From positions 434,001 to 498,000 of the forward strand of contig NZ_PIPN01000001.1 in NCBI RefSeq assembly GCF_003986955.1: a stretch of 64,000 nucleotides of DNA. Reading direction: 5' to 3'. This DNA comes from Aliidiomarina sedimenti. GTDB lineage: Bacteria; Pseudomonadota; Gammaproteobacteria; Enterobacterales; Alteromonadaceae. Positions 49,749 through 57,205 of this stretch are shown here, piece after piece. The translations under genes were made by a program, and so were the position numbers. The first letter of the stretch is position 1. Each line of letters opens with the position of its first letter. Below the pieces are notes generated by a model, which was not told where the DNA came from, searched no databases, and saw nothing but the letters and a program-made list of their open reading frames with translations.

Positions 49749-50962
49749 TGGCCGGACAACTGATTATTAAGCAGGGCAAAGAAAAAGCCCTGCTGCGCAA
49801 GCACCCGTGGGTATTTACCGGCGCTGTGGCGAAAATTAAAGGCAAACCAGGCCTTGGCGACACCGTTGAGGTGCTCGACACGCGCGGTAACTTCTTAGGC
49901 CGCGCCGCCTACTCGCCGCACTCACAAATTTGCGGGCGCATCTGGACCTTTGACGCCAACGAGCAAGTGGACTTTGAGTTCTTCAAAGGCCGCATTGAAC
50001 GAGCGCTGCGCATGCGCCAGGCGGTATTGCCTGAAGGCACCACCGGCTATCGTTTAATTGCAGGTGAGTCCGACGCATTGCCGGGCATTACCATCGATAT
50101 ATACGCCAACTGGATTGTCTGCCAGCTGTTATCCGCCGGTGCCGAACTGCAACGCGGCGTGATTGTTGAGGCGCTACGCAGCGTGTTCCCTGAGCACAAC
50201 GTGTATGAGCGCTCAGACGTCGACGTGCGCAAAAAAGAGGGCTTAGAGCAGGTTACCGGTGTGTTGCATGGCGGTTCCCACGGCAAGAACGACGTGCCAG
50301 AAGAGCTGGTAATTGAAGAGAACGGATTGAAGCTATACGTGGATATCGTCAAAGGCCACAAAACCGGTTACTACCTGGATCAGCGCGACGCCCGCCAGGC
50401 GATTAAGAAGTACGCCAAAGGCAAACGCGTACTCAACTGCTTTAGCTACACCGGCGGATTTGGTTTGTATGCCGCCGCCGCAGGAGCAAGCTTCGTGCGC
50501 AACCTGGATATGTCACAGCCATCGCTCGATATCGCCAAGCGCAATCTAACCTTAAACGGTCTGGACGACGTTGACGTAGAGCACGTGCAAGGTGATGTGT
50601 TCCAACTACTGCGTGAATACCTTTCCGAAGACAAGGGTGGCGAGAAGTTTGACGTCATCGTGCTCGACCCACCCAAGTTCGTCGACTCCAAAGCCAGCCT
50701 GACACGCGCCTGCCGCGGCTACAAAGACATCAACCGCTTGGCAGCTAAACTACTCAACCCAGGTGGCATACTGATGACCTTCTCATGCTCAGGCTTACTC
50801 AGCACCGAGCTATTCCAGAAAGTCGTCGCCGATGGCGTACTCGACGCAGGCCGCGAGATGCAAATCATCGACCGCACCTACCAGGCCGCCGACCACCCAG
50901 TGTCACTGCCCTACCCTGAAGGGTTGTATTTGAAGGGGTTGGTGGTGAGGTTGGTTGGTTGA
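49748..50962 (+). CDS. rlmI: 23S rRNA m5C1962 methyltransferase
   Basis: A 404-residue methyltransferase with an N-terminal PUA domain (LLRKHPWVFTGAV) and a Rossmann SAM domain: LNCFSYTGGFGLYAAAAG, the LDPPKF motif and FSCSG with the catalytic Cys. It matches RlmI (YccW), which methylates C1962 of 23S rRNA. The TAATG overlap couples it to metG. It marks the left border of the AT-rich island. Confidence 0.94.
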   Translation: MAGQLIIKQGKEKALLRKHPWVFTGAVAKIKGKPGLGDTVEVLDTRGNFLGRAAYSPHSQICGRIWTFDANEQVDFEFFKGRIERALRMRQAVLPEGTTGYRLIAGESDALPGITIDIYANWIVCQLLSAGAELQRGVIVEALRSVFPEHNVYERSDVDVRKKEGLEQVTGVLHGGSHGKNDVPEELVIEENGLKLYVDIVKGHKTGYYLDQRDARQAIKKYAKGKRVLNCFSYTGGFGLYAAAAGASFVRNLDMSQPSLDIAKRNLTLNGLDDVDVEHVQGDVFQLLREYLSEDKGGEKFDVIVLDPPKFVDSKASLTRACRGYKDINRLAAKLLNPGGILMTFSCSGLLSTELFQKVVADGVLDAGREMQIIDRTYQAADHPVSLPYPEGLYLKGLVVRLVG

Positions 50963-51055
50963 TAGCATATTTACGGTTTCGGGTTTATTTTCCCAAAGAC
51001 CATGGGTTAAAATGACACAATGATATTTTTTTATTAAATTTATAGGCGAATTTAA

Positions 51056-51619
51056 GTGCCACTAGCAGAATTAAGAAAGCTGATAGAGCGTTTTAAGCAA
51101 CAGGGAGATAACACCCCTATAGCGCTAAATGATATAGATGCTCGTATTTGTGCGATTCAAGAGATTATAAGTATGTGTACTAAAGAGATACGTGCATTTA
51201 TCTTTTTTGATGAGCATGGAGAAAGTGAGCTTTTTGATGTACTAGCTGATGAGCATGTAAGTAGACAGCTCTCTAAAGCTTTAAACCATACCTCGATAAA
51301 AATAGTTACTAATAACACCTCGGAATTAAAAAAACTAAGCTTTGTTAATAGGAATCTTGATGATGGAACTAAAAAGCTATTTATCAACCCCATCCCCAGA
51401 AAGCTCAAAGATGAAATAATTCAAGATACTCTTGATAATGAATTTTTTTTAGCAGCGCCCGGACACTTAGTTTTTCTAGGTCGGTATGCAATTGAAAATA
51501 ATGAGAAACTTGCAGAGGTAAGCTCATTTCTTAGTCTCTTCGACTCAGGTTTTTACGAAACTTTAGCTCAGTACTTTGATACCACAGTGTCTAGAGTTAC
51601 GGATGGAGAGTTTCGCTAA
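51056..51619 (+). CDS. Hypothetical protein, first gene of an AT-rich two-gene module
   Basis: A 187-residue soluble protein that I do not recognise. It begins with GTG, preceded by AGGCGA. A helical N-terminus leads to an alpha/beta region (IRAFIFFDEHG, IKIVTNNTS) and a C-terminal stretch (FFLAAPGHLVFLGRYAI, then helices ending DGEFR) whose order recalls non-catalytic phospholipase D-like domains; no HKD motif is present. It lacks a signal peptide. Base use is much more AT-rich than rlmI upstream. The next gene starts on the base after its stop, so the pair should be co-translated. Confidence 0.7.
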   Translation: MPLAELRKLIERFKQQGDNTPIALNDIDARICAIQEIISMCTKEIRAFIFFDEHGESELFDVLADEHVSRQLSKALNHTSIKIVTNNTSELKKLSFVNRNLDDGTKKLFINPIPRKLKDEIIQDTLDNEFFLAAPGHLVFLGRYAIENNEKLAEVSSFLSLFDSGFYETLAQYFDTTVSRVTDGEFR

Positions 51620-52153
51620 ATGTCTTCGCTAATTGAACCTGTACTACTTAATGATTTTGCACCATTTTTAAGTGTAGCTATGGCTATAAATTTTGTATCA
51701 TCATTTTGGGATGGAGTTAGAAATAAAGCGGTTAACAATCTTGACTCTCACAGAGATAGCTTCATCTCTGAACTAAATGCTGTTTATACTAGTGGTGATT
51801 CTGAGCGGTCTGAGTCTGTTGTAAATTTAAGCAATGAGGCTGAAACTTATAAGCAGAAACTATCCTGGCTATCAATTCTTGCAACTACTATCAGCGTTCT
51901 CGTTGTAATATCTTTATTTATTTTATTAGCCTGGATAGGTTTCGTCCCAAAACAGGAGCTTACTGTAGCTCAAGCAATGTTGATTACGAGTTTAAGTATC
52001 ATCCCATCCGCCTTATTAAGAGCCTATGGAACATATTATTCTAAAATATCCGTCAACAAACTTAAAATAAAAAGCGAAATCATGAAGTCGGCTGCAAAAG
52101 CGGCGATACAAGATAATCAGCAAGCCGCTTATAAGAAAAGCCCAAAGAAATAG
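51620..52153 (+). CDS. Hypothetical membrane protein, second gene of the AT-rich module
   Basis: A 177-residue protein, unrecognised. A weakly hydrophobic N-terminal segment (about residues 12-30), a polar helical stretch (about 35-82), then two strong membrane helices (about 83-108 and 118-138) and a basic C-terminal tail. This is broadly like two-helix SLATT-type membrane effectors of bacterial conflict systems, but that is only a topology resemblance. The ATG abuts the stop of the preceding gene. AT-rich like its partner. Confidence 0.7.
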   Translation: MSSLIEPVLLNDFAPFLSVAMAINFVSSFWDGVRNKAVNNLDSHRDSFISELNAVYTSGDSERSESVVNLSNEAETYKQKLSWLSILATTISVLVVISLFILLAWIGFVPKQELTVAQAMLITSLSIIPSALLRAYGTYYSKISVNKLKIKSEIMKSAAKAAIQDNQQAAYKKSPKK

Positions 52154-52158
52154 ATTTT

Positions 52159-52368
52159 TCAATCGATACAGCAGCGGTGAGATTTAAAGTTATCACTTAT
52201 CGCAATTCCGGGCGTCCGTGCTGAACGCTTTGCTTCCAGCCTAGGTTCAAGCACTACGCCTACATCTTTGTATCGCGCCAAAACATTATCATAGTGTCGG
52301 TACCCTTGTAGAAAGAAGCCTATTGTATTTTCCTGCTGAGTCGACCTTTCTCCTGAAATACCACCACA
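52159..52368 (-). pseudogene. Unidentified C-terminal gene fragment
   Basis: A 69-codon open frame on the minus strand directly preceded by stop codons and without a usable start. The translation (including GYRHYDNVLARYKDVG and SARTPGIAISDNF) looks protein-like rather than random. It is probably a remnant of a gene I do not recognise. Confidence 0.35.
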
Positions 52369-52449
52369 TTATCAATGAGATTTCAGTTTTAATGCCAAAT
52401 GTTTTGCATATTCAGCTGGCGGAAAATATTTCAGTCAGGCGCGAAGCCG

Positions 52450-52690
52450 CTATTCGTTGAAGTGACCCTGCCACTGTTCAATATGGTACCGAGCTTCATC
52501 CAAGGTTCTGAACCAATGCCGATTCAGGCACTCGTTCCTAAACTTACCTTTAAGGCTTCCCCAAAGGCATTCTGTCTTAGTTTACCTTGTTGAATATCGC
52601 TCAGGCGAAGACCTTTGGTTTTGCTCCAGAAGAACATCGGTTTGCTAGTAAGTTCAATGCATTCTCGCAAACAATCGATTCCGGCTGACT
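52450..52690 (-). pseudogene. Relic of an IS3-family transposase (OrfB C-terminal part)
   Basis: On the minus strand, ELTSKPMFFWSK and QNAFGEAL match the DDE region of IS3-family OrfB. After a frameshift near 52550 the reading continues as GKFRNECLNRHWF and LDEARYHIEQWQGHFNE, the conserved end of these transposases, followed by an early stop. The catalytic DNG region is altered (LREC). Both ends and the upstream half are missing, so this is inactive. Confidence 0.75.
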
Positions 52691-52817
52691 GCGAGTCTAT
52701 GTTATCTGAATTAAATAGTGTACCTTGCTGAACTGAAATTGACACTGAAATCGTAGGACATTTATGCGTTACCACTACAAATAAAGAAGTCAAAATGAAG
52801 TGCTATCACTTATAGTT

Positions 52818-53231
52818 CTAGGGTGACCCAAGCCCCTCGAAAACCTGATCCGTTTTCTGGCCTTCGCTTTCGACAACAGAATTTGGGTTAGACCAAACTC
52901 TATCAGCCATCTTAGTAGTGGCAACACCGATGACCGCGCCAAACAGTGCTGATACAACAGCGACAATTATCGCGTCAATATTTCTTTTAAAGAAGCCAGG
53001 ACAATGCTCTCGATGCAACGGACGAACTAGTGAATAACGCCAGAGATGTATAAATGCGACGTAGAGTACCCATGAAAATGTCAAAGCCAAAACAGACAAA
53101 TAAAGGAAATCATATGATTTGAGTAGCGGCAGATGGAAAGAGTTAGGGATAACGATCGCACTACCTACCACCCACGCGTACTGGTAAAGAATTTTAGGTT
53201 TTCGCTGACAGCGACTAAGAATTAAGTCCAT
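52818..53231 (-). CDS. Three-helix membrane protein, possibly the 3' half of a gene split by IS110
   Basis: A 137-residue protein, unrecognised: a short N-terminal region with SRCQRKPKILYQY, then membrane segments at about 20-38, 41-66 and 88-108, and a polar C-terminus. The frame is open upstream of the ATG (GLFVK before MDLIL). It ends against the left border of the IS110 element. A minus-strand gene with its own ribosome site enters the element from the other side. The two may be halves of one protein; see findings. Confidence 0.5.
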   Translation of the reverse strand: MDLILSRCQRKPKILYQYAWVVGSAIVIPNSFHLPLLKSYDFLYLSVLALTFSWVLYVAFIHLWRYSLVRPLHREHCPGFFKRNIDAIIVAVVSALFGAVIGVATTKMADRVWSNPNSVVESEGQKTDQVFEGLGSP

Positions 53232-53260
53232 CTTGACGAAAAGACCTGACGCTTGTATCT

Positions 53261-53435
53261 CTCCAGGTGAAGTGATTAGCTATCACTGTAACCGAGAAGT
53301 GAGTGAGGACGGGCCTGACCGAAGCTTTAAAAGCTGATTGGTAGATTGTCCCCTTGCTTCAATATCTCATTAACTGAATGGTATCCAAGCGCCTTCTATG
53401 AAGTGACGCTGAATGAGAAAGGGGAGTACAAAGAG
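53261..53435 (+). ncRNA. Candidate IS110 bridge RNA in the left end
   Basis: In IS110-group elements the non-coding left end encodes a structured RNA of about 170-180 bases that pairs with donor and target DNA. This left end is 175 bases by the border above and has no coding content. TGGTATC occurs in it (53379-53385) and again at the right border (54456-54462), as a donor-specific guide could. Folding was not computed. Confidence 0.4.
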
Positions 53436-54428
53436 ATGATGCAATACGTTGGCGTTGATGTGAGCAAAGAAAAAGTCGACGTGTGCTGGTTACGCAGCAA
53501 AGATAGCGAGTCCGGTAAGACAAAGATTAAAACAAAAGTCTTTAAGAACAGGGACTTTGAAATTATTACCAAATGGCTGAAAGACACGATTGGCGAGGAC
53601 TTTAGCAATATCGTAGTTGTGTTAGAGCCGACCGGCGTTTATCACGAAGGCTTAACTTATTTCCTGCACGAAGCGGGTCTGCAGGTCTGCATTGGCAATC
53701 CGAGTGACGCCAGGGCGTATGCTAAATCGGTTGGATTTAAACATAAAACAGATAAAGAAGACGCTAAAGTGCTGGCTTATTACGCCTCTCACGAGCCTCG
53801 CAATCTAAAGGTGTGGGAGCCAGAGCCACCCCTGGTTCGTGAGCTGAAAGCGATGCTAAGACGCCTGGATGCTCTGGACAAAGACCAGCAGCGTGAAATT
53901 AACAGGTTAGAAGCCAGTGAAATCAGTGGTGCTTCGCTGCGAGTTACAGATTCAATCCGAGGCATGATTGACGCATTAGAAGAGGAAATACAAAGGCTTA
54001 AACAAGACATTGATGACCGGATTAAGAAAGATCCGGTGCTAGCAAAGAACCGAGAGCTGCTGCAGAGCATTAAAGGTGTTGGTGACGTACTAAGTCGTGA
54101 AATGGTCGTGTTGTTTGCAGCAAAGAAATTCTCCGACGCTAAGCAAGTCGCGGTATACCTAGGCCTAACACCGGTATTTAGGGACTCTGGTACGCAAAAA
54201 GGTAAAACCGTATTGAGCAAGCTGGGCCCGGCCAGAATACGCGCGAAGCTCTACATGGCAGCGGTGGTCGCAGGCCAACACAACATGGATATTAAGCGCC
54301 AAAAACATCGCTTAATCGCCAATGGTAAAAGCAAAATGGCCGCTCTTGGCGCGGCCATGCGAAAGCTGGTTCAAATCTGCTATGGCGTGGTGAAGAACCA
54401 GCAAATGTATCAACCCCAAACGGTTTAG
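53436..54428 (+). CDS. IS110-family transposase
   Basis: A 330-residue DEDD recombinase. The RuvC-like domain has YVGVDVSKEKVDVCWL (first Asp), VVLEPTGVYH (Glu) and HKTDKEDAKVLAYY (Asp pair). A coiled-coil linker spans about 140-215. The C-terminal Tnp domain has SIKGVGDVLS and GLTPVFRDSGTQKGK with the catalytic Ser region. I chose the ATG at 53436, after AGGGGAG; an in-frame start at 53346 lies in the non-coding left end. All active-site segments look intact, so it may be mobile. Confidence 0.93.
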   Translation: MMQYVGVDVSKEKVDVCWLRSKDSESGKTKIKTKVFKNRDFEIITKWLKDTIGEDFSNIVVVLEPTGVYHEGLTYFLHEAGLQVCIGNPSDARAYAKSVGFKHKTDKEDAKVLAYYASHEPRNLKVWEPEPPLVRELKAMLRRLDALDKDQQREINRLEASEISGASLRVTDSIRGMIDALEEEIQRLKQDIDDRIKKDPVLAKNRELLQSIKGVGDVLSREMVVLFAAKKFSDAKQVAVYLGLTPVFRDSGTQKGKTVLSKLGPARIRAKLYMAAVVAGQHNMDIKRQKHRLIANGKSKMAALGAAMRKLVQICYGVVKNQQMYQPQTV

Positions 54429-54463
54429 CAACCGGTTGAGGTCGATGTGGAGAGATGGTATCT

Positions 54464-54732
54464 ACCAGTTCACTCGATGAAACATAAATTCGAGCCCAGC
54501 GATGGTACAGCTCAATACTTAAATAGGGACTCCTAGCTGTTATCTTTATATTGGACGGACTTCTACCCCTACTAACCTCAATGAACTCATTAACAGACTC
54601 ATATCTGACATCCTCTGCAATAAGCTCGATCTCGGAACAACTTTTAAGTTTAACAAGCAGATCTTCGAGGTCACTAGCCCACATTATGAGAGGGCCATAT
54701 TCTTTAATTTGTGGTTTATCTAGCTTTTGCAT
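54464..54732 (-). pseudogene. 5' part of a gene interrupted by the IS110 element
   Basis: About 90 codons from an ATG with AAGGAG ten bases upstream, reading to the IS border. It contains MWASDLEDLLVKL and YLSIELYHRWARIYVSS. The protein is not recognised. Beyond 54463 the frame continues only by reading antisense into the IS. It probably joined the membrane-protein frame at 53231-52818 before insertion. Confidence 0.6.
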
Positions 54733-54885
54733 TGAAAATTGACTCCTTCTATCCTCACCCTTAAAAACTAAGACTCAGGTCACCGGAGAGTTGGAAATAA
54801 CGCAGAAAATCCATCGAAGTAAACCAGCTGATTAAAAAACATCCTCAATAGATCTCTTCATGTTTGATTCGAGACCTTACATTTG

Positions 54886-55318
54886 TCAGCTATTATTCAA
54901 CAAACTCTTGACCTTATATTTAACATTACTGGAAAACCTACCTGTTTCAAATTCTAATTCTGGCAGTCTTGAAAATTCGATGAGATACTTGACGGGTTTC
55001 TGGCCATCAATTTATATATTGAATCATATTCCATCATTACGTTTCGACAATATTACTGATATTTAAAAACGAGTTCATCGTCGAATAAAACTACGTTATT
55101 CAAAAAATTGTCACTTAACTCATCTTTATTTTCTAAATATACAGGATACAATTTAAAAAAGTAGCTCGCCTGATGCTAAATTACATCTTGTGATATTTTT
55201 CTATTGATGTTTCGTACTCTTGCAAACAAGCATAAACATCCAATAGAGCATTAATTTTTCTTTCATAAATTGAAGAATACCTAAAGATTCCCAATTCAAA
55301 ACCAATGCTCCTTGAAAT
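54886..55318 (-). pseudogene. Degenerate AT-rich gene downstream of the attC site
   Basis: Three clean stretches in different minus-strand frames, separated by stops: one just after the attC (ERKINALLDVYACLQEYETS), a middle one (FKLYPVYLENKDELSDNFL) and a C-terminal one (FSRLPELEFETGRFSS) ending in TGA at 54886. They look like one protein broken by frameshifts. It is in the position of a following integron cassette. Unrecognised. The remaining bases from 54743 to 54885 hold nothing I can identify. Confidence 0.45.
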
Positions 55319-55393
55319 GGCTAACGCTTCAATAACCGGTGCAGCTTTGCTGCATCCGGCGCCGAAGGCGCGAAGTTGATTGACTTGTTAAAC
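55319..55393 (-). other. Integron attC recombination site
   Basis: Read on the minus strand: core GTTTAAC (55393-55387), AAG, TCAAT, a middle part with two hairpins, ATTGA, AGC, then core GTTAGCC (55325-55319). TCAAT and ATTGA pair as the inner boxes, and the AAC and GTT ends pair as the outer boxes. Length 75 bases. The GTT-xxxx core differs from GTTRRRY at one position. The TIR gene stop codon lies in the first core, the normal cassette layout. Confidence 0.75.
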
Positions 55394-56199
55394 GTTTTTC
55401 TTGCCATGAGTCAACGGAATGCCCGCCCATTCGTTTTGCTTCTTTTCATGCATTACGCCTTGTATGACTACAGGTTTGTTTGTTGGTGAGGTTACCTCGA
55501 CCAAAAAAGGAAACCCGGGAACTGTTCCTTTTTCGACACCAATGAATTGCCCGTTGTATGTCTTTCCATCATTTAGAGTAATATTTTCATGGAATCCAGT
55601 ATTACACATGTTTCCTGACTTATATTGGAAGTTGACATCAGACTTATCCATATTGGTTAGAAATATATAATGCGAAATTGGCTCTAGGTAATGTTCAGCG
55701 TGAATCTCTACGAATGTCGAGCTGCCCTCAACATATTGATATGCTCGGACATTTGAAAATTGCTGTGGGCCAGAATTAAACGTATTACGACCTGAAAGGA
55801 CATCTACGACTTGTCGAATCGCAACTTCTAAACCGTTGCCAAATAAATCTATATAGAGGCTTTGCATGAGGAGAGGGGGCATTAAACAGTCATCGAGTTT
55901 AACAGGAATTATTTTGGTATCCCCACTTGCAGCTTTCATTACCGCATTTTGCCACTCAAGCTTGACCATGTTGCTCCGCAAGCTGTTCTTCGAAACAAAA
56001 AAAGGAAAAGTTTGCACTCACCTAGACCTTCATTCATTTTGTCTACGATGCCGTCACCGGGCTGCATAGACCAAGAATCGTAAAAAACATTATCTTGACC
56101 AAAGGCATCACGCAATCTCAGTGCTACCTGCTCTACTATGACTTTATCCTTGTGATTGTGTGATACGAAGATCAATGGGATTCTCCTTGTTGTGAACAT
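55388..56199 (-). pseudogene. TIR-domain protein, frameshifted in a 7-A run
   Basis: Two overlapping frames: 56199-56004 encodes PLIFVSHNHKDKVIVEQVA and FYDSWSMQPGDG, the start of a TIR domain. After a one-base shift at the A7 run (55997-56003) the frame reads FVSKNSLRSNMVKLEW, IIPVKLDDC and LYIDLFGNGLE, completing it. The likely catalytic Glu of TIR NADases is in VKLEW. An unrecognised beta-rich C-terminal domain (about residues 140-270) follows. With one extra A the product would be 270 residues. AAAGG precedes the ATG. The stop lies in the attC site. Confidence 0.8.
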
Positions 56200-56506
56200 T
56201 TAACCTTTGTATAGTGCGCCAGCACGCTTTGCCCACACGGCTTTTCGAGCGGTATCGAAGTCAGATAATTGATATAGCGAGGATTTCGTTATGAGGAGGC
56301 TCTTTCCCTGAGGAAACAAACTGAGCATGCTCGTTTTGCTATGTCGCTATGCCTATTATCCCTAGCGTACGTTATTATTATGTTATTGACCATATTAAAA
56401 TTAATCCCTACCCGCAACTCCGAAGCGTGCGCCCTGCTTCGGCTATGCGCGCAGTGCCAGCAGATGGTGAATAAGCCAGGGTGACCACAACCTGTCAGTC
56501 ATCTCT
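56200..56506. other. 307-base non-coding interval at the island's right border
   Basis: No gene is seen. It must contain the TIR promoter. A 7-bp hairpin (CCGAAGC 56420-56426, GCTTCGG 56436-56442) lies about 65 bases after the pseudouridine synthase stop but has no T run. Confidence 0.4.
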
Positions 56507-57205
56507 TTAAAAAGGGCTGGTGCAGTGACCATGACACGGCTCGCCGGTCACCGGATGTTGAAAATATAAATCGCTGGCGTGCAGTAGCAATCGATCTGCC
56601 AGCTGTTGACTGGTTGCGCTGTGATATAAATCACAACCAAGAATGGGGTGGCCCATAAAAAGGCTATGGATTCTTAGCTGATGCGTGCGGCCGGTCTCAG
56701 GGGTGAATTCCACCAGGGTCCGCTGCGGTTGAGTGAGCCGGTCTATGACACGGAAGTGACTGGTTGCCGCCTTGCCTGTGCTGCTGCAAATTTTAACCCG
56801 CGGAAACTGACTTTTATCTTTAGCGATAGGCGCGCTGATGACGCCCTCGTCATCCTTCACCCACCCTTCCAATATCGCGAGATAGCGCTTTTGCACTGTC
56901 CCGACCTGGAACTGATGATTAAGGTGCTGTGTCGCCTGCTGGTTGAGGGCAACCACCATCACACCTGAGGTGCCAAAATCGAGCCGGTGCGGTAATTTAG
57001 CCTCGCAAAACGGAGGGCTAACCCCTGGCTGACCATTTACCAGTCGATAATGTACCGAGTCGAGGTTACGTGGGTTTTTACCGGATAGAGTAAGCAGGCC
57101 CGCAGGCTTGTTAATCAATAAGATGGCTTCGTCCTGGAATAAAATATCCACAAACGCATCGCAGGCGGGCGCGATAAAGTCATCAATACTAGTTGCAGCC
57201 CCCAA
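56507..57205 (-). CDS. RluA-family pseudouridine synthase
   Basis: A 232-residue RNA pseudouridine synthase. It shows ILLINKPAGLLTLSGK, the catalytic Asp in LPHRLDFGTSGVMVVA, and the late GRTHQLRIHSLFMGHPILG motif. No N-terminal S4 domain is present. The order and size suit RluA or a related tRNA/rRNA enzyme, but the target uridine cannot be assigned. It borders the AT-rich island. Confidence 0.9.
   Translation of the reverse strand: MGAATSIDDFIAPACDAFVDILFQDEAILLINKPAGLLTLSGKNPRNLDSVHYRLVNGQPGVSPPFCEAKLPHRLDFGTSGVMVVALNQQATQHLNHQFQVGTVQKRYLAILEGWVKDDEGVISAPIAKDKSQFPRVKICSSTGKAATSHFRVIDRLTQPQRTLVEFTPETGRTHQLRIHSLFMGHPILGCDLYHSATSQQLADRLLLHASDLYFQHPVTGEPCHGHCTSPF

Follow-up and report, generated by a model that had tools for sequence, protein, structure and literature searches.

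We suspect, with a probability of roughly 0.7, that the window (the whole 64,000-nucleotide stretch of Aliidiomarina sedimenti DNA analysed here) holds one unit of a dispersed integron, in which many pads, each made of a promoter and an attI site, are scattered over the genome and the integron integrase (IntI) acts in trans or has since been lost. As far as comparison of sequences goes, the window has a genuine attC site and a pad homologous to the attI region of intI loci, attC matches (three of them weak) lie behind all eight such sites of this genome, and cassettes appear to have been swapped with borders at the core and at an attC. In the proposed scenario, a pad (promoter, leader and attI-like core) behind the housekeeping gene rluA would have taken in promoterless cassettes by IntI-type recombination of its G/TT with a circular cassette, whose attC strand would take part in folded form, with IntI as the presumed catalyst. 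The first cassette, here a now-frameshifted TIR gene, would be transcribed from the putative pad promoter. Because no intI lies beside these pads, IntI may have acted in trans, may have visited, or may have been lost from each of them.

The attC site and the variable island of the window

Sites of the attC type are defined by core boxes of the RYYYAAC and GTTRRRY types, with an imperfect palindrome and inner boxes between them. The minus strand of the window carries at 55319-55393 a 75-nt site flanked by GTTTAAC (55393-55387) and GTTAGCC (55325-55319; its sixth base deviates from GTTRRRY), which contains the inner boxes TCAAT/ATTGA and a GCGCC/GGCGC hairpin. The first core box includes the stop codon of the TIR gene (55390-55388). 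As single-stranded DNA, the minus strand is predicted to fold at -15.9 kcal/mol (shuffle mean -9.8, z -3.0, 1 of 200 shuffles as good) and the plus strand at -16.4 kcal/mol (z -2.6, 3 of 200 shuffles as good). The preliminary description had proposed an attC with these boxes at the end of a TIR cassette, and the boxes bear out the proposal; both strands fold better than nearly all shuffles.

The family to which the site belongs is widespread. BLAST with the site found four other places in this genome; a search of the 17 genus genomes (this one included) gave 28 places, spread over 11 of them, and homologues also turned up on six plasmid records from Shewanella, Pseudoalteromonas, Salinivibrio and Enterobacter. 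The 28 places carry attC sites at the ends of other cassette genes; 26 were aligned, and two that lie outside the box pattern were left out. A MAFFT alignment of these 26 members, for which RNAalifold gave three base pairs, was made into a profile (R1). The window site scores 74.8 bits with R1, a home-made profile that includes the site itself, stands near a sequence profile, differs from the IntegronFinder attC model and is no test of attC structure. At E<=0.01, R1 finds 11 attC sites in the genome, on contigs C1, C4, C7 and C8, and it missed an attC-like end that is visible by eye at an island of Aliidiomarina soli. With 11 attC sites and no intI found, the genome falls within the CALIN class, and the array of the window, having one attC, lies under the usual threshold of two. 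Judged by these comparisons, the attC at 55319-55393 is confirmed as genuine and as the end of an integron cassette, its recombination by IntI being putative.

The inserted cassette is 879 bp long (55325-56203, minus strand), with the attC at one end and, at the other, the position (56201) at which the similarity to relatives stops; its exact borders are predicted from the G/TT rule. The TIR gene (55388-56175, minus strand) lies in two overlapping frames (56199-55939 and 56017-55388), both of which matched TIR_2 when searched separately, and its start is likely the TTG at 56175, behind AAGGAG. The preliminary description makes no mention of this split. Because it is split over two frames, the gene is probably inactive, unless the split is a sequencing error, and the frameshift counts against the reading of the window as part of a dispersed integron. 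The frame changes near a run of seven T at about 56000 (within 55939-56017), which may reflect a pseudogene, a sequencing error or slippage. Against plasmids, the second TIR piece gave a single weak match at 25.5% identity.

Next to the attC, a degenerate stretch (54740-55318, minus strand) has no R1 attC match, and its pieces are unmatched among the fetched loci; it is possibly a decayed next cassette. A search of the fetched loci for homologues of 54280-55330 found none. The variable island as a whole runs from the pad to the conserved right flank (50963-56203), synteny with A. soli resuming at 50962; from the pad to that position it measures 5.2 kb. Its A. soli equivalent, counted from the second copy of the pad there, is about 24.6 kb long. 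An IS110-family transposase gene (53346-54428) lies within the island and overlaps the end of a minus-strand ORF (54292-54732). Two adjoining plus-strand genes occupy 51056-52153; the first has no Pfam or PADLOC match and the second encodes 177 aa. The window and the array loci together supplied 20 proteins, some of which are perhaps not encoded by cassette genes; nine of them matched PADLOC profiles (E<=0.001), including SIR2, TIR-TM, PDC-S31 (in three proteins), PDC-M34B and PDC-M14A, with weak matches to TIR-NLR/PDC-S66 and LmuB.

The promoter-attI pad and its copies

The preliminary description had read the cassette as a fragment of a former array or as an insertion at a secondary site. 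That reading gives way to another, given that the cassette starts exactly at the 3' end of an overlooked pad of about 217 bp with a promoter and an attI-like core (56201-56417, minus strand), which recurs in the genome. The pad begins about 90 bp past the stop codon of rluA, a pseudouridine synthase gene (56507-57205, minus strand; Pfam PseudoU_synth_2) that forms the conserved left flank and is the neighbour of the pad in A. soli too. The RluA of the window stands at 94% against that of A. soli, and similarity between the two species continues through rluA and ends at the start of the TIR cassette, at 56201. On the minus strand, the pad consists of a putative cassette promoter (TTGCGG-N17-TATGGT, 56389-56417), whose pattern recurs at orphan sites, a conserved leader (56235-56388; 22 copies in alignment A2) and an attI-like core (56201-56234) that ends in ACAAAGG/TTA, with the crossover predicted between G56204 and T56203.

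Six BLAST matches to the pad occur in this genome, and matches extend to 12 of the 17 genus genomes. A profile of the pad (R2) finds it in 13 of the 17, with eight matches in this genome, and under stricter filters in 11 of 147 family genomes (3 of 52 genera). Most full copies finish in ACTATACAAATGTTA or near it, and the genes behind them differ. Comparison of the pad with plasmid and phage collections gave no match. A structured leader RNA was considered and rejected: the consensus fold has 13 predicted pairs and no compensatory ones, and searches of the whole window and of the pad against Rfam gave no match. Copies of the pad also adjoin integrase genes, lying between a divergent intI and the first cassettes in one genome (G013), beside a 412-bit intI in another (G041) and beside decayed intI in two more (G144 and G118). 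Because of these neighbours, homology identifies the pad as the promoter-attI region of the integron itself, further copies of which stand without intI beside them.

The attI-like core was recognized with a matrix of 13 cores (11 distinct) from the intI-adjacent regions of nine relatives, none of them from the genome of the window; two AAAGGTT matches were excluded. With this matrix, 56201-56234 (minus strand) ranks first in the window at 25.6 bits, the runner-up reaching 8.4 bits and the maximum over 20 mononucleotide shuffles 12.9 bits. The core thus resembles the intI-adjacent attI of relatives; it has no intI beside it, none being found in this genome, and its homologous copies lie beside intI in G013 and G041. 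Eight cores of 15.2-31.8 bits were found in this genome (in the window, at C1:220k, C1:245k, C1:258k, C1:648k and C8:2.8k, and two on C7). Seven coincide with R2 matches, and the eighth (L105:11914) is weak in R2 (E 0.0018). The R2 match at C1:555k is a truncated copy that lacks the core. Degenerate cores exist (that at L102:15980 ends in ATGTAG and that at L104 in ATGTTC) and count against a dispersed integron.

A promoter-like pattern, composed after the sequences had been seen, occurs 213-217 bp before the core end at 15 of 29 orphan sites, at 185 bp in one and elsewhere in one. Of 12 intI-adjacent sites examined, 10 have it at 193-241 bp, and a random control matched it at 74 of 2000 stretches of the window. 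Another 12 orphan sites lack the pattern, including three of this genome (L103 and both L105 sites), which counts against the proposed scenario.

Within 5 kb downstream of the core, 19 of the 29 orphan sites (12 genomes) have an attC match on the same strand; four have one upstream and none has one on the opposite strand, in a set of loci that was chosen around pads and attC places and is therefore no survey. The one-sided orientation of these matches is the telling part. A 15.1-bit match (E 0.058) 350 bp behind the site of G012 was left out and would bring the count to 20 of 29, and a 14.4-bit place (L172:10114-10147) is not among the 29 since it ends no pad. Ten of the 29 sites, including those of G004 and G145 and all three of G013, lack a downstream attC match, which again counts against the scenario. 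In the A. sedimenti genome, each of the eight sites is followed by same-strand attC matches, which at three sites (L102 twice and L105:7533) reach only 17.6-19.6 bits. The single contig of G011, without IntI above the family cut-off, has a core of 22.5 bits and, after a gap the size of a gene, an attC roughly 0.5 kb further on.

Integrase genes and proposed cassette exchange

The preliminary description had also reported no visible integrase, and had proposed a genome-wide intI search next to an attC-model search, for which R1 stands in here. The search agrees with it: no IntI above the family cut-off was found in this genome, the only IntI-like matches being two XerC/D-like genes, and no intI fragments were found beside any of the eight sites. 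A complete integron, with an intI, was thus not found, in a genome in which two contig ends lie in arrays: C4 starts inside one, and the array of C8 runs toward the contig start. Because of these truncated arrays, an intI could be concealed in an assembly gap. The array of C4 (C4:1-8200; L106:1-8200) comprises seven attC matches right at the contig start. Its pad would lie in the assembly gap, possibly together with intI. Because no IntI was found in the genome, present-day activity of the pads is only putative.

Among the 17 genus genomes, six have IntI above the cut-off. Full-length intI and distant pads occur together in G004 and G012. In G145, a single contig, about 2 Mb separate the pad from a fragment of IntI that contains stops (about 0.8 Mb in the other direction, should the contig be circular), and that fragment sits about 1 kb from an attC. 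These three genomes, together with G011 (core and attC, no IntI above cut-off), would favour action in trans.

Several integrase genes lie between two outward-facing attI cores (G001, G012, G015 and G016), and in G014, which is outside the matrix, cores of 38.0 and 35.3 bits surround a broken intI. This two-core arrangement occurs at five of seven Aliidiomarina intI loci, G004 and G013 being the exceptions; the two-core loci are L108:457-1960, L111:8023-9527, L112:9459-10986, L113:7691-8795, L035 and L182 (G015:C20). The intI genes of G013, G014 and G016 appear broken, and clear attC matches on both sides of intI are found in G015 and G016 only.

Six pads stand at common places in two species, and the first cassettes behind them are unrelated in all six, with only 762 bp comparable in L118. 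Those shared between A. sedimenti and A. soli are window/L038, L101/L118, L102:3047/L117:17568, L103/L116 and L102:15980/L117:4209; the pad shared with G005 is L104/L119. At these six pairs, the cassettes join at G/TT and are unrelated from the core onward, two pairs (window/L038, copy 1, and L103/L116) having a truncated A. soli pad. Upstream of the shared pads, identity is 93.9-95.0% in the first four; the fifth has 77% over 335 bp, and the sixth 85-87%.

Two islands have conserved flanks on both sides. At L102:15980/L117:4209, similarity resumes (96.0% over 1183 bp) at a point 6 bp ahead of GCATTAGGC in A. sedimenti and of GCGTTAGGC in A. soli; at L102:3047/L117:17568, the point of return (96.6%) lies 2 bp ahead of GTTAGGC in both genomes. 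The preceding attC differ between the genomes at both islands, and the swapped stretch begins at the attI core and extends as far as the TTAGGC of an attC. A cassette at array position 2 in G005 is the first behind a pad of G006, the two being 89% identical from the junction. In A. soli, a glutamate-synthase-like gene with CDGSH motifs lies behind two different truncated pads (L038:10769-12626 and L116:7504 onward; 86.8% over 828 bp).

Alternative explanations and significance

Each pad could be what is left of a complete integron of its own that has lost its intI, with no action in trans. We consider this unlikely. In its favour, intI loss is one of the accepted origins of integrase-free arrays according to a passage in PMC8618304, decayed intI adjoins the pad in G144, in G118 and in the G014 locus, and the IntI fragment of G145 has an attC nearby. 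It fits poorly with eight sites in one genome that have no intI fragment beside them, with a pad so close to the rluA stop codon that no space is left for an upstream intI, and with the coexistence of full-length intI and distant pads in G004 and G012. The differing cassettes at pads shared by two species argue that exchange continued once the pads were placed, with later loss of IntI possible. A less probable account of those cassettes is homologous recombination of whole islands between strains, without site-specific exchange in place. In its favour are long flanks of 94-96% identity and the failure to find intI in A. sedimenti (G000) or A. soli (G010); against it, the switches in similarity at two islands fall at the attI core and 2-6 bp from the TTAGGC of an attC. 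Cassettes placed by IntI may later have been moved by homologous recombination.

Insertion by IntI at ordinary attG-type secondary sites, the likeness upstream being incidental, seems to us highly improbable. Such insertion is established (passages in PMC12901181 and PMC12444791), attG sites also hold chromosomal cassettes away from intI, and the cassette of the window is far from any intI found. Yet attG sites are, in the relevant passage of PMC12901181, strongly diverged from classical attI and attC sites, whereas the pads match attI, form conserved elements of 200 bp present in 13 of 17 genus genomes, and here carry a core that fits intI-adjacent attI at 25.6 bits.

The dispersed integron that we favour resembles a sedentary chromosomal integron in its promoterless attC cassettes, which follow a promoter and an attI core and all point the same way, and in the homology of its pads to intI-adjacent attI. 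It differs in that intI is missing beside the pads, that a genome has several pads where the sedentary integron has a single attI, and that the arrays are often short. Like the CALIN and single-attC classes of IntegronFinder, it has attC sites without a nearby integrase; those classes are defined by attC alone, whereas here arrays begin at an attI-type pad with a promoter. Cassettes of the Delta-attI type in class 1 and 2 integrons, as one part of PMC12901181 presents them, likewise show attI copies off their usual place, and their attI2-type end AATAAAATGTTRRRY resembles the ACAAATGTTA of the pads; there, pieces of attI replace the attC behind a gene within an integron array, whereas here promoter pads start arrays elsewhere in the chromosome.

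Integrons are described, in a section of PMC9024848, as typically having one attI near the integrase, and the same text states that IntegronFinder 2.0 recognizes attI sites of class 1 only. Integrase-free attC sites and their mobilization in trans are already known, as parts of PMC12444791 and PMC8618304 record. In the open-licence literature (titles and starts of abstracts), we found no report of attI pads free of intI or of intI between two attI.

Taken to the level of Aliidiomarina and its relatives, the model would be a distributed integron, in which one resident or visiting integrase serves scattered pads that each express their own first cassette; the first positions, often of defence type, would swap independently, and the pads would outlive the integrase. 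We put this wider proposal at even odds, because 10 of 29 sites lack a downstream attC and current activity is putative. If true, several intI-free promoter-attI pads per genome would mean that cassette expression is free of the limit of one first position. Such pads could account for part of the integrase-free cassettes, and would escape tools that do not look for attI. They mark defined islands, many with defence-type genes, the contents of which can be compared between close species.
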